From contig JADFYY010000006.1 in NCBI GenBank assembly GCA_015232825.1, forward strand, positions 1 through 44,905: a stretch of 44,905 nt of DNA, in the 5' to 3' direction. Shown here piece after piece: positions 3,028 through 28,250 of the stretch. The position numbers and the translations under genes are program-made. The stretch comes from Magnetococcales bacterium (lineage in GTDB: Bacteria; Pseudomonadota; Magnetococcia; Magnetococcales; Magnetaquicoccaceae). The notes under the pieces are model-generated. The model searched no databases. It had not been told where the DNA came from and saw nothing but the letters and a program-made list of their open reading frames with translations. Position 1 is the first letter of the stretch, and each line of letters begins with the position of its first letter.

Positions 3028-3458
3028 ACACCCAATCCCGTGGTGCCGCAACTCTGCTGGCCAGCCTGATCATCTTGGTTCTCCTGACCATGATCGTGGT
3101 CTCATCCATGAACGTCAGTACCGTCAATTTTGGCATTGTTGGCAATTTGCAAACCATCAAGACCATGGATTCGGCAACCCAACAAGCCTTGGATACTGTC
3201 ATGTCACAAGGAGCCCATTTTACCGCTTCGATGCCCACATATACATTCAGATCAAACTCAGACATAGGCACCATAGCGGCCCCAACCTGCATTGATTCCC
3301 AAATCTCCAGTGGCAACAGTGCAAGTTGGACCATGGCACCCAGAGACAACACCTGGGAATTGACGGCCACCATCACCAATACCACGACAGGAGCGGTTTC
3401 CACCATTCATCAGGGGACACAAATTCGACAACTGGCGGGTGTTTGTTACCCGGAATAA
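3024..3458 (+). CDS. pilX: Minor pilin PilX
   Basis: This 144-residue protein starts in the ATGA overlap with pilW. Its N terminus, SRGAATLLASLIILVLLTMI, matches the PilX N-terminal pattern (RGAALLxxLxxLxxLT). As in other PilX proteins the Glu5 of ordinary pilins is absent. A NVSTVNFGIVGN stretch follows the helix, as in the family. Two Cys (CIDSQ and the C-terminal GVCYPE) may form a disulfide. PilX is a minor pilin of the tip complex that cooperates with PilY1, whose gene begins 19 bases downstream. Confidence 0.8.
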   Translation: MNTQSRGAATLLASLIILVLLTMIVVSSMNVSTVNFGIVGNLQTIKTMDSATQQALDTVMSQGAHFTASMPTYTFRSNSDIGTIAAPTCIDSQISSGNSASWTMAPRDNTWELTATITNTTTGAVSTIHQGTQIRQLAGVCYPE

Positions 3459-3477
3459 CGATAAGGGGGTCTCTCAC

Positions 3478-6400
3478 ATGCGCACAATTTTCGGCTTGAT
3501 TTTAATTCTCTGTCTGTGTCTGACGCCCGTTGGCACGAACCACGCAGCCTTTGACCCGGTCAATGATGACACAGACCTATTTTTGAGCAACCCCAATGTC
3601 ACAGCAGACCGTCCCAATGTTTTGATCATCCTCGACAACACCGCCAACTGGAACCAAGCATTCGTCAACGAAAAAGCGGCTCTGGTTTCTGTGGTATCCA
3701 ATTTGAGCGATGCCTTTAATGTCGGCCTGCAGTTGTTTCCCGAAACCGGCAATCCCAATGACAATGTGGACGGTGGATATATCCGTTTTGCCATACGGCA
3801 AATGACCACAACCCCGAAAAACAACAAAAACACTCTAGCCAACTTGGTAAACGCCCTGGATATTAGGGATGACAAAGGAAACAACGCCACCACGGGCTTG
3901 ACCATGTACGAGGCTTATCTCTATTTCGCTGGTTTGGCCTCGCGTGCCAGTTTTGGCAAAGTTAAAACCGACTATGAAAACAATGTTAGCCACCCCGCAA
4001 ACGGCTTGGGAAGCTATGCCTTGCCTGCTTCACCCACAGCCGCTTCCCTTTACAACTCCCCCATTGCCAATGGCTGCCAAAAAAATTTCATCATCTATAT
4101 CAGCAACGGACCAGCCAATGAAAATGCCAATGCCAGAGCTGATTCCGAAAACAAACTGGCTTCACTCACCGGTACGTCACCACCAAGCACCATCTCGATT
4201 ACGCCCAATGGTCAACAGGGTAACTGGGCTGACGAATGGGCCAACTACCTTGCCAACAGCGATATCAACAGCTCCATTAGCGGAAAACAGTCTGTCTACA
4301 CTTATGTCGTAGAAGTAGATCCCGGCACCACCGGTCAACAACAAGACATGACCGCCCTGCTCAAAAGCATGGCCAACAAGGGAATGGGACGCTATTTCGC
4401 CGTATCCAGTGGCAACTCCGGTCAGGCGATCATTAACACGCTCAACTCCATTTTTCAGGAGATTCAGGCGGTCAACAGCGTCTTTGCCGCTACCACCCTT
4501 CCGGTCAGCGTCAATGTCCGTGGCACCAACCTGAATCAGGTCTATGTTGGCATGTTTCGTCCCGATTCCCAAAAATTGCCTCGTTGGTATGGCAATCTCA
4601 AGTGCTATCAACTGGGATTGGATACCAGCACCAACGATCTGTATTTAGCAGACATGAACAACATTAAAGCGGAAAACACCACTACCGGTTTTCTCACCCC
4701 GACAGCCACCAGTTTCTGGACCGAAAGCTCCACATTCTGGTCGTTTAGGGACAATTCACTCAATGGTTCTGGCGGTGGATCGGATCTGCCAGATGGCGAT
4801 CTGGTGGAAAAGGGGGGCGTGGCCCAAAAACTGCGTCTCGACAATGCCGCCTCCCAGGCTCTGCGCAACCTCTACACCTGTACTGGAGAGTGCACCAACG
4901 GCAGTTCGCTCTCTTCGTATCCCTTCAATAAAGACAACACCGATATCACCTCAGCCAGCCTGATGCTGGATGTCCAATCTGTCTCTTCCCTGACTGGACT
5001 GGTGAATCAAACCATCACCGAGCTGACGGATGTCAAATCCGTCACTTCCCTCTCCACCGCTGGAGCAAGCGTCAACGTCTCCAGCTTAACCAATGGCTCA
5101 GTCACCCAAACCATCTCTTCCTTAACCACCACAACAACTAAACCCATCACCAGCCTGACCAACTCATCCATTGTCAAAACCATCACCCAATTGACTCAAC
5201 CCGCAAACAAAACCGCTGAGGCGACCATCACGGATCATGGATATCCAAACGGACAAATCGTCACCATCTCGGCTCCAACCTGCGATTCCAAATATTCGGT
5301 GACGAGTACCGCCATCACGGTGATTGACAACAATAAATTCCGCTATACCATCGCCGCTGGCAATGCAAACAATTGCACGAACGCCGCCACATCCACCACC
5401 ACAGGCTCCATTGTCACCGCCACAGTCGCATCCCACGGCTTTACCGATGGCCAGTCTGTCACCATCTCTGGTGTGACCCCTACCGGATATAATAACAGCT
5501 ACACAATCACCAAACTGACAGACGATACCTTCTCTTTTTCCGCCACGCCCTTAGCCGTGCCAACCGTCTTCGGATATGCCGCCGGGCAAACCTCGACCGC
5601 CACAGCCACCCTGACTGCCCATGGCTACAACGTCGGTGACACCATTACCATTGCCGGGGCCACACCGACCGGATACAACGGCAACATCACCATTCTGACC
5701 AAAGAGACCAACACCTTCACCTATGCCGCATCCCCCATGGCCAATGCCACAGGCACCCTCACCGCCACCAAAGGGAGTACCACCGTGACCGCCACGACCG
5801 TAGCGGATCATGGCTTTGTCACTGGCAATACCGTCACCATCAATGGGGCCACTCCAACCAGTTACAACGGTTCTTACAGCATTACCTATCTTACCCCCAC
5901 TTCATTCTCTTACACCACGGCCACGGCCCTGCCTCCGCAAACAGGAACCGGCATTACGGCTTCAAGCGGTGTCTCCACCAAGGCTGTGGCCACGGTAGCT
6001 GGCCACGGCTTTGCCTCAACAGAGCAAGTCACCATCAGCGGGGCCACCCCAACTGATTATAATGGATCTTACACGATCACCAAAATTGATGACAATTCGT
6101 TTTATTATACCCTCACATCCACCCCAACCCCTGCAACCGGGACCATCACCGCCAGACTAACCACACCCACTGCGTTTGCCACACTCACGGCCCATGGATA
6201 TTCTACCGGCGACTCGATTCAAATCAGCGGGGCCACACCCTCGACTTACAACCGCACCATTGCCATCACTGTCCTGGATAACGACCATTTTAAATATTCC
6301 CTAGCCTCCTCGCCCCTGACTGCGGCAACCGGTACACTCATCGCGGCCAACCAATCCCTCACCGCCCAAGCCACTGCCATCTCTCATGGTTTTGCCAATG

Positions 6401-8241
6401 GCAGTTCGATCACCATTGCTGGAGCCACTCCAACGGATTTCAATGGCACTTTCACTATCACTAAAATTGATGACAATAGTTTTACCTATACCCTCCTCAC
6501 CACCCCCCAAGGTACGGCCACTGGAACCATCACTGCTGAGGAGGGAGGGGTTGGTGTCACCAATACAGCTCGCGACAACCTCATTGACTGGATCCGGGGC
6601 GAAGATAATTACGAAGATGAAAACCTGAATGGCACTAGCACTGATGTACGGGCATCTATCCATGGTGACGTGCTGCACTCCAAACCGGCGGTGATCAATT
6701 ACAATCGCTTAGGGACGGATAACGACGTCATGGTCTTCTACGGGGCCAACGACGGCGTTTTTCGTGGCATCAAAGGGGGATTCTCCAGTGAAGCGGGCTA
6801 TGCAGACCCGGCCTCCGAGGTTTGGGGATTCATTCCATCCGAATTTTTTGGCAAGCTGAAACGACTGCGCAACAACGATCCGATCTTAAGCAGCACCTAT
6901 AAAAAGCATTATTTCGCCGATGGTTCCATTGGCTCATATGTCAAAGATGCCAACAACGACGGAAAACTCCTAGCCGCAGACAATGACAAGGTGCATATCT
7001 TTATCGGAATGCGTCGCGGGGGGCGTTTGATCTATGCCCTAGACGTCACCACGCCAGAAAGTCCGAAACTGCTCTGGAAAAAAGATTACACCTCCACAGG
7101 CTACACAGAACTTGGCTACACATGGTCCGAACCCAGGGTCATCCCAAAAATCAACGCCAATTCAGGCAATCCGGTACTCATTTTCGGTGCAGGCTTTGAT
7201 CCCACGGTGGAAGACGTCACCCCAGACACCATTACGGCAGCCACCTCAACCACCGTTACGGCTGGAGCAACGATTTACACGCGCAGCATGGGACGAGGAA
7301 TTTTCGTGGTGGATGCAGCCACAGGAGCAGTTCTCTGGCAGGCTGGACCTGGTCGCATTCCTGGAGACCTAGCCACCCACCCCTACCTCACGGTCAGAGG
7401 CATGAACTACAGCATTCCAAGCGATATCACGGTCATCTCCAACAAGGGGGGCTCACTCCCCAATCGGGCCTATGTCGGAGATACAGGAGGCAACGTGTGG
7501 CGCGTCAACCTAAACGATGCCGATGTCAACAACTGGACCGTAACCAAACTGGCGTCGATTGCCACCACCGACTCCTACAAAAATATGCGTAAATTTCTTT
7601 ATCCACCGGACGTTGTTTATTCCACGGATTACGATGCGGTATTGATTGGCAGTGGCGACCGCGAACACCCGTTGGACGAAAAGGTGGAAAACCGGATGTA
7701 CATGTTCAAAGACACGGACACAAACGTCACCTCAACGGACGCCAATATCCTTGAGAGCAACCTGTACAACGCCACCACCAACTGCATTCAAGACTCCACG
7801 GCCTGTGTGGCCGAGGATTCCACCTCGGCCCAATCCAGTCTCAACAGTGCCAAAGGGTGGTATATCCAGTTGCTGCCGGGTGAAAAGTTGGTAAGCAACG
7901 CCGTCAGCATCAATAAAGTCACCTTTTTCAACACCCACCAACCGGCTTCGTTGGCATCGGATACCAGTTGCGCCAACAATCTAGGGATAGCCAGGGCCTA
8001 TCAGGTCTCTTATCTCAACGCCACAGCACTGACTGATCGCGACAGCGATAGCAAAACAAGCTCTTCGGATCGTTACCAAGTCCATCCTGGCGGCGGTTTT
8101 CTGCCCCCACCAACTCCGGTGGTGGTGGAAATTGACGGCAAAATCGAGGTAGGTGTGGTATCTGGCGTTCGGGTGGACGAGCCACCTGGAGTGGCGTTTA
8201 ATAACCGTTTGCGGCGTTTTTGGTTCAAGGAAATGGAGTAA
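3478..8241 (+). CDS. pilY1: PilY1/PilC pilus tip protein with a repetitive insertion
   Basis: I chose the ATG at 3478 (1587 residues) because an AGGGGG ribosome binding site lies about 10 bases upstream and a signal peptide follows directly (MRTIFGLILILCLCL, cleavage near Ala24). Upstream frame extension into pilX is unlikely. Residues 47 to about 330 form a von Willebrand A domain, but its metal site is degenerate: D53-x-T55-x-N57 instead of DxSxS. From residue 1031 (NLIDWIRGED) to the end is the PilC/PilY1 beta-propeller, including IHGDVLHSKPAVINY, FYGANDGVFRG and a DxNxDG calcium-binding-like loop near residue 1157. PilY1 is exported and sits at the pilus tip, where it controls adhesion and retraction. 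Between the two domains lie about 500 residues of low-complexity SLT-type and HG-type repeats, which makes the protein several hundred residues longer than usual PilY1. The opposite-strand DUF790 gene ends 8 bases later. Confidence 0.9.
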   Translation: MRTIFGLILILCLCLTPVGTNHAAFDPVNDDTDLFLSNPNVTADRPNVLIILDNTANWNQAFVNEKAALVSVVSNLSDAFNVGLQLFPETGNPNDNVDGGYIRFAIRQMTTTPKNNKNTLANLVNALDIRDDKGNNATTGLTMYEAYLYFAGLASRASFGKVKTDYENNVSHPANGLGSYALPASPTAASLYNSPIANGCQKNFIIYISNGPANENANARADSENKLASLTGTSPPSTISITPNGQQGNWADEWANYLANSDINSSISGKQSVYTYVVEVDPGTTGQQQDMTALLKSMANKGMGRYFAVSSGNSGQAIINTLNSIFQEIQAVNSVFAATTLPVSVNVRGTNLNQVYVGMFRPDSQKLPRWYGNLKCYQLGLDTSTNDLYLADMNNIKAENTTTGFLTPTATSFWTESSTFWSFRDNSLNGSGGGSDLPDGDLVEKGGVAQKLRLDNAASQALRNLYTCTGECTNGSSLSSYPFNKDNTDITSASLMLDVQSVSSLTGLVNQTITELTDVKSVTSLSTAGASVNVSSLTNGSVTQTISSLTTTTTKPITSLTNSSIVKTITQLTQPANKTAEATITDHGYPNGQIVTISAPTCDSKYSVTSTAITVIDNNKFRYTIAAGNANNCTNAATSTTTGSIVTATVASHGFTDGQSVTISGVTPTGYNNSYTITKLTDDTFSFSATPLAVPTVFGYAAGQTSTATATLTAHGYNVGDTITIAGATPTGYNGNITILTKETNTFTYAASPMANATGTLTATKGSTTVTATTVADHGFVTGNTVTINGATPTSYNGSYSITYLTPTSFSYTTATALPPQTGTGITASSGVSTKAVATVAGHGFASTEQVTISGATPTDYNGSYTITKIDDNSFYYTLTSTPTPATGTITARLTTPTAFATLTAHGYSTGDSIQISGATPSTYNRTIAITVLDNDHFKYSLASSPLTAATGTLIAANQSLTAQATAISHGFANGSSITIAGATPTDFNGTFTITKIDDNSFTYTLLTTPQGTATGTITAEEGGVGVTNTARDNLIDWIRGEDNYEDENLNGTSTDVRASIHGDVLHSKPAVINYNRLGTDNDVMVFYGANDGVFRGIKGGFSSEAGYADPASEVWGFIPSEFFGKLKRLRNNDPILSSTYKKHYFADGSIGSYVKDANNDGKLLAADNDKVHIFIGMRRGGRLIYALDVTTPESPKLLWKKDYTSTGYTELGYTWSEPRVIPKINANSGNPVLIFGAGFDPTVEDVTPDTITAATSTTVTAGATIYTRSMGRGIFVVDAATGAVLWQAGPGRIPGDLATHPYLTVRGMNYSIPSDITVISNKGGSLPNRAYVGDTGGNVWRVNLNDADVNNWTVTKLASIATTDSYKNMRKFLYPPDVVYSTDYDAVLIGSGDREHPLDEKVENRMYMFKDTDTNVTSTDANILESNLYNATTNCIQDSTACVAEDSTSAQSSLNSAKGWYIQLLPGEKLVSNAVSINKVTFFNTHQPASLASDTSCANNLGIARAYQVSYLNATALTDRDSDSKTSSSDRYQVHPGGGFLPPPTPVVVEIDGKIEVGVVSGVRVDEPPGVAFNNRLRRFWFKEME
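5233..6540 (+). repeat. Seven HG-type repeats coded within pilY1
   Basis: Seven imperfect tandem units with a period of 186-198 bases (62-66 residues) begin at 5233, 5431, 5617, 5806, 6001, 6190 and 6382. Each unit carries HG(Y/F)xxGxxVTISGATPTxYNGSY followed by ITxxDxxxFxYT, here written as a consensus. Unit 1 is aberrant, with a Cys pair in place of the ATP segment. The DNA is diverged between units, so these are old protein repeats rather than recent DNA duplications. They are preceded (about 4975-5215) by a shorter Ser/Leu/Thr-rich repeat of the form SSLTNxSVxxTI. Confidence 0.85.
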
Positions 8242-8249
8242 AATTAATA

Positions 8250-9479
8250 TTATTCCATTTCCACACCCAAAAACCCATCCAAACACTTTTCCACCCGTTT
8301 GACCGGCGGAAACTGGTTAAAGACAAAACCGTGATCTTGAAACCAACGGGAGTTCTCCAGCAATTTGGATAAAGCCGGTTGTTTGCTTAAAGCTCGATCC
8401 ACTCCCACAGCCAAAAAAACAGGCTTGTGGGAGCCATCCAGACGGGCCAGACGCCGTGGAAGATGTCCTTCGTGCCACGCATGAAAAAGTTCCAGGTGGA
8501 CCGTGATGCCGTTCTTATGCCGAAAACTGAAATCAGGAATGGCCATCTCCTGACCACCCAACTCCACCAACGGGGAGGTGGTCAAAATCTTCCAGTCCGC
8601 GACCTCCTCCTTGAATTTGGCCGCAAAGGTGGTGAATTCATCGGGAACATAGGCCGTGGTGCGGGTGTAATGGGATTTCAAACCACTGGTCTCATCCAAC
8701 TCCAAGGTGGCGGCGGGTTCGTTGCGGATGCGGGTCATGGCCGTCACCTTCCAACGAGAAAGGGCGCAGACCGCCGGGAGAAAATTGGCCAACTTGATGC
8801 CATATTTGCGCGTCACGTCAAACAGACTCAGCGGGCCGTCCAGATCCAAACGCAGCCCCTTTTCGCTAGTAGGAACAATCGTGGCCAAGAGTTGAAAAAA
8901 CTTCAAATGACGAAAAAATTGTCGTCGTTTGCCAATATCCGACTCCCAGATATAAAGAGTCATGGCATGGGACCAGATCAATGGACCTTGTGCCAAGGCC
9001 ATATTGTATCGATGTAGAAGATCTTCCGGCTCAATGGAATCAAAAGCCATCAAAGGTTGGCGCACCGGCAGATCGGCATGGAGATCCAATGCCAGTTGAT
9101 CGGGGTCGTCACGTCCCATATCCCTGACCACCGCACGACGAAAAAGCTCCAAATCATCCCTGTCGTCTGCCCGCAGATGTTTGGCCGCCGTGGTAAAAAT
9201 GGCCATACGTTGCTCTTCCAGCCCTTCCAGAGACTCCCGAAAGGTACAACGATCCAACAATAACTTGTTCACCCCCTTGGCGATCATGGGCGAGCGGTAA
9301 GAGTTGATCAACGGTAAGACGGCATCGGCCAACTCTTCACGACTTTGACCTTCACCCGCCGCATAAACCAGCGAGAGATCCCGGACGAGATTTTGCAAAA
9401 TCAGAGTGGTCGTATCGACAAAACGGGGAATCAGCCGCCCCTCGCGCCGATCATAACGCAACAGCTCCCTAGTCAGCAT
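8250..9479 (-). CDS. DUF790 family protein, Bax1-type nuclease partner of XPB
   Basis: The protein has 409 residues and matches the DUF790 family, whose archaeal members are called Bax1 and bind XPB helicase. Visible family marks are LLHRYNMALAQGPL near residues 154-167, LDLDGPLSLF near 211-220 and a C-terminal nuclease-like core with Asp316 in IPDFSF and Glu330 in VHLELF, a PD-(D/E)xK-type arrangement. From known Bax1 biochemistry the protein should be a structure-specific DNA nuclease acting on bubble or fork DNA with the helicase; that activity is inferred here. The start codon overlaps the end of the helicase gene by 7 bases, so the two are co-translated. The 3' end nearly meets pilY1 from the other strand. 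Confidence 0.8.
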   Translation of the reverse strand: MLTRELLRYDRREGRLIPRFVDTTTLILQNLVRDLSLVYAAGEGQSREELADAVLPLINSYRSPMIAKGVNKLLLDRCTFRESLEGLEEQRMAIFTTAAKHLRADDRDDLELFRRAVVRDMGRDDPDQLALDLHADLPVRQPLMAFDSIEPEDLLHRYNMALAQGPLIWSHAMTLYIWESDIGKRRQFFRHLKFFQLLATIVPTSEKGLRLDLDGPLSLFDVTRKYGIKLANFLPAVCALSRWKVTAMTRIRNEPAATLELDETSGLKSHYTRTTAYVPDEFTTFAAKFKEEVADWKILTTSPLVELGGQEMAIPDFSFRHKNGITVHLELFHAWHEGHLPRRLARLDGSHKPVFLAVGVDRALSKQPALSKLLENSRWFQDHGFVFNQFPPVKRVEKCLDGFLGVEME

Positions 9480-10855
9480 ATGGGCAATCCCCGTTGATAG
9501 GCCGAGTGCTGACGACGGCGTTCGCTGGTAAAGGTTTCGGCGGTATCTTTGGAGACCAGTTCATAAAGAATGGCCTGCTTGCCTTCCCTTGGACGCAGTA
9601 GACGTCCCAGACGTTGAACATGCTCCCGAATCGAACCACTGCCAGAGACGATAATCCCCACACTGACTTCAGGCAGATCGATCCCTTCGTTGAGTACTCG
9701 CGAATTGACCAAAAAAGGCAACTCCCCGGCACGAAAGGCCTCCAAAAAACGGATCCGCTCGGCGATTTTGGTCTTGTGGGTAATGACCGGCAGAAAAAAG
9801 GTTTCACCAATGGCATAGGCCGTGGCATTGTCATCGGTGAACAGCAAGGCACGTTCCTGGCGGTGACGGCGTAGCAGACGCCACACCATACGCAATTTGG
9901 CGCGAGAAGCCCGCGCCAGACGTTTCTGCATGCGATAGGCGGCCATGGCAGCACGACCTTCCTTGGAACGACAGCAGATCATGACAAACTCGCTCCAAGC
10001 CGCAGGCCGACCAAAATTGATCCCAGTGGAACGGGCAAACTCCTTGTATTGGGCATAGGCGGCGTCATAAGCCAACCGTTCGTCGGGATCTAGCGTGACC
10101 GGCACCTGTTCCAGACGGTAAGGAGCCAGAAACTCCCCTTCCAATTCAGAAATTTCACAACGATGGACCATAGGACCAAGCAGGTCGAACAGATCTTCTT
10201 CCAACCCATCGGCCCGTTCTGGGGTGGCGGTGAGTCCCAACCGATAAGGAGCCACACACATCACGGCGGCCAGTCGTGTGGTGGGGGCAGGCAGATGGTG
10301 ACACTCGTCACAAATGAGCAGACCAAAACGGGCTCCAATACGCTCCATACCCAAATAGGCCGAATCATAAGTACTGACGGTAATGGCTTCGAGACGATTC
10401 TCCCCACCGCCCATCATGCCAATGGGGAGACCAAAGGCCTGTTCAAGTTGGTCATGCCATTGTTGCGTGAGATTAATCGTGGGAGTCAAAATCAAGGTGT
10501 CGCGTTGAATCCGCGCAATGGCCATACGGGCAACCAACGTTTTACCTGCCCCCGTAGGCAACACCACCACCCCTTGATGTCCAGCTTTGACCCAGGCGAG
10601 AAATGCGGCCTGTTGATGCGGTCGTGGCGCGTGGTCGTCTTTGGTTTGGAAAGATTGCGGAAAAAAAGCACGTGCGGAATCCTCATAAGGAATTTTTCCG
10701 CGATGCAAAATCAAGACAATAGGACCGTAACGTCTGGCTTCGGCGCGATAACTATCACTGCGTTCATCCCAACTGACCAAATGAGCGACTGGAGCCATCT
10801 CCTGAGCCGAACCAAACAAAAGCAAGGTTCCTTGATCAAAAACGATGCGAATCAT
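9473..10855 (-). CDS. XPB/Rad25-like superfamily 2 DNA helicase
   Basis: This 460-residue helicase has an N-terminal segment of about 70 residues that may correspond to the XPB damage-recognition domain. The motor follows: Walker A LPTGAGKT (residues 99-106), DECH box at 183-186, LGLTATPERADG at 207-217 and a C-terminal helicase domain ending in HVQRLGRLLRPREGKQA. Human XPB reads TATLVREDD at the same place; here the RED motif is R-A-D (214-216), with Glu replaced by Ala. A basic helical stretch (about 285-325) sits where XPB has its thumb region. XPB proteins unwind DNA in transcription and nucleotide excision repair; archaeal XPB does so with Bax1. The gene overlaps both the VanZ-like gene upstream (ATGA overlap) and the DUF790 gene downstream. 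Confidence 0.85.
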   Translation of the reverse strand: MIRIVFDQGTLLLFGSAQEMAPVAHLVSWDERSDSYRAEARRYGPIVLILHRGKIPYEDSARAFFPQSFQTKDDHAPRPHQQAAFLAWVKAGHQGVVVLPTGAGKTLVARMAIARIQRDTLILTPTINLTQQWHDQLEQAFGLPIGMMGGGENRLEAITVSTYDSAYLGMERIGARFGLLICDECHHLPAPTTRLAAVMCVAPYRLGLTATPERADGLEEDLFDLLGPMVHRCEISELEGEFLAPYRLEQVPVTLDPDERLAYDAAYAQYKEFARSTGINFGRPAAWSEFVMICCRSKEGRAAMAAYRMQKRLARASRAKLRMVWRLLRRHRQERALLFTDDNATAYAIGETFFLPVITHKTKIAERIRFLEAFRAGELPFLVNSRVLNEGIDLPEVSVGIIVSGSGSIREHVQRLGRLLRPREGKQAILYELVSKDTAETFTSERRRQHSAYQRGLPIC

Positions 10856-11463
10856 GCCGAAGAGAGAACAAGGCCTTCCGATTGATCTTCAAGACACCCT
10901 TGCTGACGACAAACCATGGTGCCGAACCATAACCCAATGGCCGCACCAACTGCATTCATCCCCACATCCCGCAGATCAAAATGACGATTGGGCAACATCC
11001 ATTGAATAATCTCATCCGAAAACCCGGCCCCAACCACAGCCAGATACACCCAAAGCAATCCCGTTCCCCTTGGCCGACCCGCAGCCCGAAACACCAAAAA
11101 CGCCAAAATGCCATACTCCAAGAAATGAATCCGTTCCACAGCATTATCCATGCTATAGGCCAAACCAATAATGGCCACAAATGGCAGCATGGCGATGGTT
11201 CTCTGATCCTTACGAATGCGATGAAACATAACCACAATGGCAAAAAATAAAGCGAGAATCAAACCAACGGAAATCAAGGTAAAGGCTTCATTTTTACCAA
11301 TCGTCTTGAATACAAATCGCACCACAAAGGGAGTAAGGGGCAAAGTCAAATAGATGGTGAGCAAATAGGCCCACACCACCGCCCATCGTGGTCCAGGATA
11401 GTGGATAGAGAGGTGTTGAGAAAGATTGACAAAAGAGAACAGGCTCAGAAATGGATTTTTCAT
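10852..11463 (-). CDS. VanZ-like integral membrane protein
   Basis: The 203-residue protein has about four to five hydrophobic membrane segments (near residues 28-50, 60-80, 90-105, 115-130 and 170-190). It carries the VanZ-type signature: ERIHFLEYGILAFL followed by DEIIQWMLPNRHFDLRDV and GMNAVGAAIG. VanZ proteins are linked to glycopeptide tolerance in Gram-positives, but their role in Gram-negative bacteria is unknown. It is the first gene of an operon with the XPB-like helicase and DUF790 nuclease, sharing an ATGA overlap with the helicase. A membrane protein in a DNA helicase-nuclease operon is unexpected. The start is preceded by a GGGGATGG stretch. Confidence 0.8.
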   Translation of the reverse strand: MKNPFLSLFSFVNLSQHLSIHYPGPRWAVVWAYLLTIYLTLPLTPFVVRFVFKTIGKNEAFTLISVGLILALFFAIVVMFHRIRKDQRTIAMLPFVAIIGLAYSMDNAVERIHFLEYGILAFLVFRAAGRPRGTGLLWVYLAVVGAGFSDEIIQWMLPNRHFDLRDVGMNAVGAAIGLWFGTMVCRQQGCLEDQSEGLVLSSA

Positions 11464-11586
11464 AAGCCATCCCCATCAACGATGAGATCGTGGACAGGGA
11501 TGGCAACCCCAAAAACCCCGCTCTGGGCAAGAATGTGCGAATAGAAATTCATGTCATCCTTAACGAACCTCGCGGGGAGTAAAAGT

Positions 11587-12675
11587 TTAACCGTTAACCC
11601 GTTCAAACTCGCGCATAAAGGCGATAAGGGCATCCACACCCTCTTCTGGCATCGCATTATAAATGGAGGCCCGCATGCCACCCACCGAACGATGCCCTTT
11701 GAGCGTCACCAGCCCTGCAGCCTTGGCTCCAGCCAAAAAGGGATCGGTCAACTCCGCTTTGGCAATGGTAAACGGCACGTTCATACGGGATCGACTGGCC
11801 TTCTCAGTGGGACAAAGATAAAATCCCGAAGCGTCGATGGCATCATAAAGCTTGTTGGCTTTGGCCACATTGCGTTGTTCAATGACCGCCACCCCACCTT
11901 GCTCCTTCACCCATTCCAGCACCAATCCCAAGATATAAATGGCATAGGTGGGAGGGGTGTTGTACATGGAACCATCCTTAGCCTGAACCTGATAATCCAG
12001 CATGGCTGGCAGGTTGGCTTTGCGGCCCAATAAATCCTTACGAACAATCACCACAGTGACGCCACTGGGACCAAGATTTTTCTGTGCCCCGGCATAAATC
12101 ATTCCGTAACGCGAGACGTCCACACTCCGGGAGAGAATGTTGGAAGAGGCATCTGCAATCAAAGGCACACTCCCGGTATCTGGAATCTCCTGATATTCCG
12201 TACCAAAAATGGTATTATTGCTGGTAATATGGACATACGCAGCATTGGGATTAAGAGTCAACTCAGCTTGGGTCGGGATGCGGCAATAATTGACACTTTT
12301 AGTCGTTGCGGCCACACGCACATCCGAAAAAATTTTCTTGGCCTCAGCAAAAGCCTTTTCAGACCAACTGCCCGTCATGACATAATCGGCGGATTGGGTG
12401 GCTGGATCCGTGATCAAGTTCATCGGGATCATGGTGAATTGCAACGAAGCCCCGCCTTGCAAAAACAGCACGGCGTAATCGTCGCCAATTCCCATGAGCT
12501 GACGCAATAGAGCTTCCGATTGAGCAATGATGGCCATATACTCCTTGGAACGATGGCTCATCTCCATCACCGACATGCCAGACCCCCGGTAATCGAGCAT
12601 TTCGTCCCTGGCCCTTTCCAGGACAGACACAGGGAGTACCGCCGGTCCAGCACTAAAATTATACACACGTTTCAT
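11587..12675 (-). CDS. serC: Phosphoserine aminotransferase
   Basis: The 362-residue length and full-length similarity identify SerC, which transfers the amino group of glutamate to 3-phosphohydroxypyruvate in serine synthesis and also acts in pyridoxal phosphate synthesis. The N terminus KRVYNFSAGPAVLP and the following SVMEMSHRSKEY are hallmark SerC sequences. The pyridoxal phosphate lysine is Lys199 in AGAQKNLGPSG, at essentially the same position as in E. coli. The product is cytoplasmic. A good ribosome binding site (AAGGAGA) precedes the ATG. The gene stands alone, 123 bases from the VanZ gene, with no obvious hairpin terminator in that gap. Confidence 0.95.
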   Translation of the reverse strand: MKRVYNFSAGPAVLPVSVLERARDEMLDYRGSGMSVMEMSHRSKEYMAIIAQSEALLRQLMGIGDDYAVLFLQGGASLQFTMIPMNLITDPATQSADYVMTGSWSEKAFAEAKKIFSDVRVAATTKSVNYCRIPTQAELTLNPNAAYVHITSNNTIFGTEYQEIPDTGSVPLIADASSNILSRSVDVSRYGMIYAGAQKNLGPSGVTVVIVRKDLLGRKANLPAMLDYQVQAKDGSMYNTPPTYAIYILGLVLEWVKEQGGVAVIEQRNVAKANKLYDAIDASGFYLCPTEKASRSRMNVPFTIAKAELTDPFLAGAKAAGLVTLKGHRSVGGMRASIYNAMPEEGVDALIAFMREFERVNG

Positions 12676-26621: not shown

Positions 26622-27710
26622 TTAGGCCTGATTGCCCGTAGGATCGACGGCGAAGAGTTCTTCCGCCATCGCCTCTACTTGCTGACGTTTTTTTTGATAT
26701 TTAGAATCTTTCAATAACGAATTGATCGATCCTGGCGTTACCCGAAAGGGCGCGAGTATGCGTTGAATTCGCTGAGACGATGCTTCGACTTCCCTTTGTT
26801 TCATGGATTTCAATGCCTGCGAAATTCCCATTATAACCGCTTCGTTGTCCTCCATGCGACCCGTACAACACAACACCAGATCACATCCCGCCGAAATGGA
26901 AAGACGGGCCCGCTCCTCCATGGAACCCTTGAGCGCGCCCATCTCCAAGGCGTCGGAAACAATGACCCCAGAGTATTTCCATTTCTGTCGTAAGGTCTTG
27001 TACAACAATGTGCGCGACCAAGTGGCTGGCAGACCGTCATCCACTTGCGAAAGTGCCAAATGCGCGGTCATGATGCCGGGTAAATGAGTCGCAAGGGCGA
27101 GAAATGGGTTCATTTCCCACCTCTTCATCTCCTTGAGACTCTTATCCAATACAGGCAAAGTAAGATGGGAATCCGCTCGTGCCGCACCATGGCCCGGAAA
27201 ATGCTTACCAATCGCCATGACGCCCGTTTCTCGGAATCCGTAAAGCCAGGAAGTGGCATTCAAAATAACTTCGGTAAAATGAGAGCCAAAGGCTCTTTCG
27301 CCAATGACCGGATCTGCTCCGTCCTCGCGTATGTCAAGAACTGGTGCGCAATTGACGCCAATTCCCAAAGCACGTAGTTCTTCGCCGCATAGCCTTCCCG
27401 CCGTATACAGAAGGCGTTCGGCGCGAATGGGATCTTCGCGGGCCAGGAGCGCGAATTGAAACGGACTGGGATAGCGCGTTAGTGAGGTACGGATTCTCTG
27501 CACCCGCCCCCCTTCCTGATCAATCCAGATCGTTGGCGCACCGGCTGTCTTGCCAATGGCCTTGATCAGAGCCACGGTCTGTTTGAGACTGGTTAAGTTG
27601 CGGCCAAACAGGATGACTCCAGTCGGGCGGGCACGATTTAAAAAATCGATCTCTTCCGCTGTCAATTCTGGGGCTTGAAGTGCGATAATTAGATGGATTT
27701 GTGGTTTCAT
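26622..27710 (-). CDS. nagZ: Beta-N-acetylhexosaminidase (GH3), cell-wall recycling
   Basis: This 362-residue GH3 enzyme removes N-acetylglucosamine from anhydromuropeptides during peptidoglycan recycling in the cytoplasm. It carries WIDQEGGRVQR near 62-72, KHFPGHG at 169-175 and the Asp180/His182 catalytic dyad of the NagZ-type general acid/base loop (ADSHLTLP). The nucleophile should be Asp253 in IVSDALEMGA. No signal peptide is present, which fits the cytoplasmic enzyme. An AGGATGA stretch precedes the ATG. It heads a two-gene unit with DUF971, and its 5' end faces the VanZ-like gene on the other strand. Confidence 0.93.
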   Translation of the reverse strand: MKPQIHLIIALQAPELTAEEIDFLNRARPTGVILFGRNLTSLKQTVALIKAIGKTAGAPTIWIDQEGGRVQRIRTSLTRYPSPFQFALLAREDPIRAERLLYTAGRLCGEELRALGIGVNCAPVLDIREDGADPVIGERAFGSHFTEVILNATSWLYGFRETGVMAIGKHFPGHGAARADSHLTLPVLDKSLKEMKRWEMNPFLALATHLPGIMTAHLALSQVDDGLPATWSRTLLYKTLRQKWKYSGVIVSDALEMGALKGSMEERARLSISAGCDLVLCCTGRMEDNEAVIMGISQALKSMKQREVEASSQRIQRILAPFRVTPGSINSLLKDSKYQKKRQQVEAMAEELFAVDPTGNQA

Positions 27711-27794
27711 TATGCTATCATCCTGTCACGTCACATCGTCGGTAGAGGTTTTGGGTGGTCTCACTCCATTAACACTAGGATATGGTCGGCAAAA

Positions 27795-28250
27795 ATGCAA
27801 CTCGAAGTGATCGGTAAATTCGTGAATCAGGTCGATTGTAAAAAAAAGGGGGGGCTTGCTTTGATGCTGCTGGGGTATTCAGGCTTGATTTATTATCTCT
27901 CCTCTCAAGTGTGGCAGGGTTTTCAACCAGTGTTTGATAATCAGGACAAGCTTGAACATATCCTCGCGTTTGGTTTCATGGCGTTCGTTGCCTGGACCTT
28001 GTTGCGTCAATGGTCCCAGGTGCGTTATGTCTGGTTATGGGCCTGGATTTATACGGTGATCTATGGCCTTTGTGATGAATGGCATCAGTTATTCGTTCCG
28101 GGTCGTTACGCAGATGTGGCGGATTTGCTGGCCGATGCCATAGGCGCAGCTTTGGCCATTTGTCTTTTGGAAATCCTGCGTGCCAGACATACGATCCGTC
28201 GCAATGAGGGTACTGGAGTGTTAAATAATCAGCTCCTCTCTGCGCATTGA
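27795..28250 (+). CDS. VanZ-like membrane protein (second copy)
   Basis: I start at the ATG at 27795 (151 residues) because the upstream part of the open frame has no membrane or family features and overlaps nagZ; the ribosome binding site is weak. It has about four membrane segments and the canonical VanZ signature: DKLEHILAFGFMAFVAW followed by DEWHQLFVPGRYADVADLLADAIGAALA. It is only distantly related to the VanZ-like protein at 10852-11463. Its function outside glycopeptide resistance is unknown. It is divergent from nagZ, a peptidoglycan-recycling gene, which may be meaningful since VanZ proteins are tied to cell-wall antibiotics. The molybdoenzyme gene ends 10 bases downstream on the opposite strand. 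Confidence 0.8.
   Translation: MQLEVIGKFVNQVDCKKKGGLALMLLGYSGLIYYLSSQVWQGFQPVFDNQDKLEHILAFGFMAFVAWTLLRQWSQVRYVWLWAWIYTVIYGLCDEWHQLFVPGRYADVADLLADAIGAALAICLLEILRARHTIRRNEGTGVLNNQLLSAH

Follow-up and report, generated by a model that had tools for sequence, protein, structure and literature searches.

XPB-Bax1 is described for archaea in a 2026 review (PMC13024598); according to a 2012 study on XPB in bacteria, no complex of this kind had been identified there (PMC3353954). No report of a bacterial complex was found in the literature searched, most subscription papers lying outside that search. The locus described here raises two questions: what are an XPB-like helicase and a DUF790/Bax1-type nuclease doing side by side on a bacterial chromosome, and why should a gene for a VanZ-family membrane protein precede them? 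The genes lie in a stretch of 44,905 nucleotides (the window), which is one contig (JADFYY010000006.1) of a Magnetococcales genome of 3.03 Mb that is 77% complete.

The open reading frames run in the order VanZ, XPB, DUF790, all on the minus strand (Table 1). VanZ and XPB overlap by 4 bp (ATGA), and XPB and DUF790 by 7 bp. The original prediction of a three-gene cluster opened by VanZ with an ATGA overlap is borne out by the positions of the reading frames, and the Pfam assignments agree with it. The same order was found in nine genomes of the genus, that of the window included, often with identical overlaps, and the ATGA coupling was seen in six members. The three genes are probably made from one message. 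Upstream, serC is on the same strand at a distance of 123 bp from vanZ. The pilus-type protein encoded on the other side of the cluster contains about ten diverged repeats (...HGF..G..VTI.GATPT.YNG.YTIT...).

Table 1 Features of the window
Feature	Positions	Strand	Evidence
VanZ-family membrane protein gene, 203 aa	10852..11463	minus	Pfam VanZ 2.1e-13, 51.4 bits (cut-off 30.1)
XPB helicase, archaeal type by sequence, 460 aa	9473..10855	minus	Pfam XPB_DRD, ERCC3_RAD25_C; AfXPB 6p66_A match; tree
DUF790/Bax1-type nuclease, 409 aa	8250..9479	minus	Pfam DUF790 2.6e-65; AlphaFold model; residues
vanZ leader hairpin, 3' arm with GGGGAUGG ribosome-binding region	11466..11504	minus	fold z -3.9
serC (phosphoserine aminotransferase), upstream of vanZ	11587..12675	minus	Pfam Aminotran_5
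Pilus-type protein gene, 1600 aa, convergent with DUF790	3439-8241	plus	weak E1_FCCH match
Second VanZ gene, other VanZ clade	27693-28250	plus	VanZ tree

The helicase and the nuclease

Pfam analysis of the helicase gave matches above cut-off to XPB_DRD (7.7e-15) and ERCC3_RAD25_C (2.3e-18), and ResIII was also matched. The closest solved structure is AfXPB (6p66_A, E 6.6e-99, residues 3-449, about 41% identity). The motifs GAGKT, DECH and R-A-D are present, together with the damage-recognition domain (DRD) and the thumb region (ThM), which aligns to that of AfXPB without gaps. Its score against the NCBIfam equivalog for repair helicase XPB (NF045503, 548 positions) was 228 bits, far below the cut-off of 610, and this was read as divergence. 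Both the structure match and the tree place the protein with Bax1-partnered XPBs, so that the proposal that it belongs with XPB holds when tested by tree. From its sequence the helicase is of the archaeal, Bax1-partnered type and not the mycobacterial form, because the DRD and thumb are present and Mycobacterium tuberculosis-type XPB has no thumb (PMC3353954). The mycobacterial protein is likewise bacterial and has the helicase core of the XPB family. According to that study its N-terminal domain is of another kind and a Bax1 partner was not known for it; the window XPB adjoins Bax1. Another helicase in the genome (C268), which matches no more than part of the core (36% over 179 residues), was set aside.

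The R-A-D sequence (in PERADG) had been singled out as a departure from the RED motif expected of XPB. The motif is indeed present at this site, but its middle residue is variable in bacterial XPBs found beside Bax1. Across the Magnetococcales the variants are RAD, RTD, RSD, RND, RVD, RPD and RED; other phyla have RVD, RDD, RGD, RQD and others. R and D do not vary among the aligned sequences. The motif of StXPB is itself R205-D206-D207 (PMC7672443). R-A-D was accordingly dropped as an oddity.

The nuclease matched Pfam DUF790 with 221 bits (cut-off 28.8, E 2.6e-65). An AlphaFold model (pLDDT 90) was used for a fold search of the PDB, and all eight of the matches below E 0.001 were Bax1 (best E 2.5e-22, TM about 0.6). 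The acidic nuclease-domain residue D305 of AfBax1 corresponds to D316 here, and both D316 and E330 are invariant over 26 bacterial sequences. AfBax1 also has an N-terminal site consisting of F119, Y131, D133, E135, Y155 and N156 (PMC7293015). Of this site D136, Y158 and N159 are kept in the window protein, and F119, Y131 and E135 are replaced by M121, H134 and P138, respectively. One nuclease site, the C-terminal one, is thus predictable from these residues and the N-terminal site cannot be predicted. The scores against the NCBIfam equivalogs NF053694 and NF053695 (85.8 and 84.0 bits) fall below the cut-off of 500.

The window pair resembles the archaeal XPB-Bax1 of A. fulgidus and S. tokodaii (PMC7293015, PMC7672443) in being a gene pair, in the DRD and thumb of XPB, in the Bax1 fold over its whole length and in the Asp and Glu of the nuclease domain. 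It differs from them in being bacterial, in sequence (identity is about 41% for XPB and 23% for Bax1), in the partly kept N-terminal Bax1 site, in the presence of UvrABC in the same cell and in having VanZ upstream in some genera.

Distribution and inheritance of the pair

XPB was found in 44 of the 48 Magnetococcales genomes and DUF790 in 42. In all 27 genomes of good quality XPB is single copy. DUF790 was found in none of 351 other Pseudomonadota sampled from the phylum. Where both genes are present they lie within 300 bp of each other in 32/41 genomes, and in one more (G021) they are on fitting contig ends. They are apart in eight (L025, L033, L036, L042, L048, L058, L062, L065); in several members of the sister genus the relocated Bax1 gene was seen near an rtcB gene. 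Two genomes (G015, G017) have XPB with no DUF790 detected.

Among named genomes 492 relatives of DUF790 were detected, and the best 80 were taken for comparison. All of these best 80 are bacterial; those from outside the Magnetococcales belong to Lentisphaerota/Victivallales, Poribacteria, Calditrichota, SAR324 and a small number of other groups. In 49 of the 51 non-Magnetococcales loci among them the XPB gene precedes DUF790 in the same orientation. The idea of an archaeal pair in a bacterium is therefore correct as regards the presence of the pair on a Magnetococcales chromosome; the pair is not archaeal only, since the best 80 of the 492 relatives are bacterial. XPB-DUF790 pairs are also carried by Deinococcus and haloarchaeal plasmids (H1-H15; L190-L193), and one plasmid pair adjoins orc1/cdc6 and transposases.

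The XPB and DUF790 trees have the same deep groups, and in both the Magnetococcia form one clade (SH-aLRT 100 for XPB and 83 for DUF790). The shared distribution, the gene order and the agreement of the trees together imply that XPB-Bax1 is an old unit whose members have been inherited together. UvrB was present in 21/21 good genomes of the order that were tested. XPB-Bax1 is a co-inherited chromosomal core cassette of the Magnetococcales, most likely serving in repair beside UvrABC.

The VanZ gene and its leader

The VanZ proteins of the Magnetococcales are of two kinds, split with 100/99 support, with long branches flagged in the tree. One clade (n = 20) contains all the XPB-linked VanZs and two unlinked ones. 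The other (n = 28) includes the second VanZ of the window, and none of its members is near XPB in any genome. A profile of the XPB-type VanZ found matches in 21 Magnetococcales genomes and none above 36 bits in 351 other Pseudomonadota. In the 19 genomes with both genes assembled, the distance between VanZ and XPB is about 120 bp or less in 13 and no more than 5 kb in 16. In G035 and G045 the two genes are at contig ends in fitting orientation, which leaves G037 as the sole clearly unlinked case. In G026 (contigs C392 and C357), a 93% complete relative, XPB-type VanZ was found; XPB, DUF790, serC and UvrB were not found in it, possibly through assembly gaps.

The link covers five families (f1, f3, f9, f12 and f13) whose other neighbours differ. 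The VanZ-XPB-Bax1 order recurs in f13, where the genes upstream are different; f3 and f12 have an opposite-strand gene between VanZ and XPB. In one genome (G029, L080:4873-8591) VanZ is separated from XPB-Bax1 by a complete Gabija pair (GajA 3.5e-177, GajB 3.9e-215). In G008 and G025 VanZ is still beside XPB though Bax1 has been relocated, which is more than would be predicted of a mere passenger of the pair. VanZ was not found beside XPB-Bax1 in the sister genus, in G027, in most other families of the order or in any of the other phyla seen. As many relatives and other phyla thus have XPB-Bax1 without VanZ, VanZ is dispensable to the pair.

As a control for synteny, serC was examined. It is near XPB in 19 of the 40 genomes with both genes, over three families, and a functional tie is not evident. 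The genomic linkage with XPB is tighter for VanZ than for serC; gene-order inertia can still keep unrelated genes together. When the original prediction was tested on related genomes, VanZ proved to neighbour the helicase in many members of the order but in none of the other phyla seen: the link is real but limited to the Magnetococcia.

A helical model of the window VanZ (pLDDT 83) gave no significant match in a fold search of the PDB. A 2025 survey assigns VanZ to the lipocone superfamily, with a predicted activity on lipid-carrier head groups (PMC12419801). Like the VanZ-1 family of that survey, the window VanZ is a helical membrane protein, and its subfamily keeps ExxQ and, in the last core helix, a DxxDxxxN-like motif. 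Unlike VanZ-1, it has E-R-x-H in helix 2 where VanZ-1 is reported to have Asn, and it adjoins DNA-repair genes rather than cell-wall genes. Its neighbours are serC, XPB and DUF790, with other metabolic genes in other families. The linkage to van or cell-wall genes that would mark a glycopeptide-resistance VanZ was not seen in this neighbourhood, and no plasmid match was found for the protein. VanZ elsewhere is tied to cell-wall and exopolysaccharide genes, and the survey mentions neither helicases nor DNA repair (PMC12419801).

Alignment of the serC-vanZ spacer revealed a strong hairpin that ends two bases before the ATG of vanZ. It is kept in 8/10 members of the genus (fold z -3.1 to -5.9), and its stem sequence occurs once in the window genome. 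In the eight sequences the hairpin columns pair in 85% of cells, compared with 35-51% when they are slid. These counts are suggestive of covariation but not decisive, as 41 of 500 shuffled controls pair equally well or better. Only one pair has undergone repeated two-sided change, with clear U-A/C-G exchanges. In G008 both arms are changed and the register is shifted, and the leader still folds (z -5.9), which is suggestive. The hairpin is a probable translational control element and may set the translation of vanZ and, via the overlaps, of the following genes. It was not recognised in the order's other families; the stem found in G028 is a different and weaker one. Rfam gave no match, and scans for promoters and terminators gave results near shuffle level. 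For SOS control, several LexA-type patterns were run on the serC-vanZ spacer and none gave a site; a paper with the Magnetococcus LexA site was not found.

Repair, defence or a membrane connection

The reading that we favour, and regard as probable, is repair by XPB-Bax1 alongside UvrABC, with VanZ as a co-regulated neighbour or passenger. XPB and Bax1 would form a two-subunit helicase-nuclease. XPB would open distorted or damaged DNA, giving a bubble or fork, which Bax1 would cut at the junction of single and double strands through its C-terminal site (D316, E330). In the Magnetococcia this would be an old, vertically inherited core function parallel to UvrABC. VanZ would be a lineage-specific membrane protein encoded on the same message, either co-regulated with the helicase gene or long kept as a passenger, and not a subunit of the complex. 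The full-length homology of both proteins, the Bax1 fold and the invariant catalytic D and E argue for repair, as do the occurrence of the pair across the class with matching deep groups and the ubiquity of UvrB in the good genomes; the VanZ-free loci of the sister genus, G027 and other phyla indicate that XPB-Bax1 does not need VanZ. Weighing on the other side, no biochemistry of a bacterial XPB-Bax1 pair was found in the literature searched, the N-terminal Bax1 site is kept only in part and neither protein attains its equivalog cut-offs. The genes are apart in eight genomes, two others have XPB without detected DUF790, and VanZ stays with XPB in G008 and G025 after Bax1 has moved. The original prediction had left repair and defence side by side. 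Defence, in which XPB-Bax1 would cut invading DNA, could be argued from the resemblance of the helicase core to PbeA of phosphorothioation-based defence (2.5e-51), from the plasmid-borne pairs and from the Gabija insertion in G029. However, PbeA was the best PADLOC match and is limited to the helicase core, PADLOC had no match for the nuclease or VanZ, no phage homologue was found and the trees are vertical. With XPB a single-copy core gene in all 27 good genomes and no PADLOC match to the nuclease, core repair fits better, and a defence role seems improbable.

A functional role for VanZ within the system, in which it would hold or control XPB at the membrane or couple an envelope signal to DNA processing, is rather unlikely. 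The close linkage of VanZ to XPB (16/19 genomes, with two more across contig ends) over families with differing neighbours, the confinement of this VanZ clade to the Magnetococcia within the phylum sample at above 36 bits, the ATGA coupling and the loci from which Bax1 has moved would all fit such a role. Yet XPB-Bax1 occurs without VanZ in the majority of the order's other families and in all other phyla seen, an opposite-strand gene intervenes in f3 and f12, serC likewise stays close to XPB in three families though nothing evident ties the two functionally, and VanZ elsewhere goes with cell-wall and exopolysaccharide genes. A fuller version, which we think unlikely, is that in the Magnetococcia a dedicated VanZ was recruited to XPB-Bax1, so that the opening and cutting of DNA would be coupled to the membrane or an envelope signal, and the vanZ hairpin would set translation. 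No VanZ-XPB mechanism is required by the data. A chance assembly of the three genes in the window genome is hardly credible: no common function is described for them (none is mentioned in PMC12419801), but the order recurs in nine members of the genus and in f13 behind different upstream genes, and this synteny rules chance out.

With repair beside UvrABC as the preferred reading, the link to VanZ is a clean lead, and a lead only, to a connection between repair and the membrane. The XPB and Bax1 genes are, as a pair, close to fixation in one bacterial order, alongside UvrABC, and are distributed among several phyla. Bacterial XPB-Bax1 proteins become available for study, and a testable question is raised: what does an XPB-type excision machine contribute to a cell already equipped with UvrABC?
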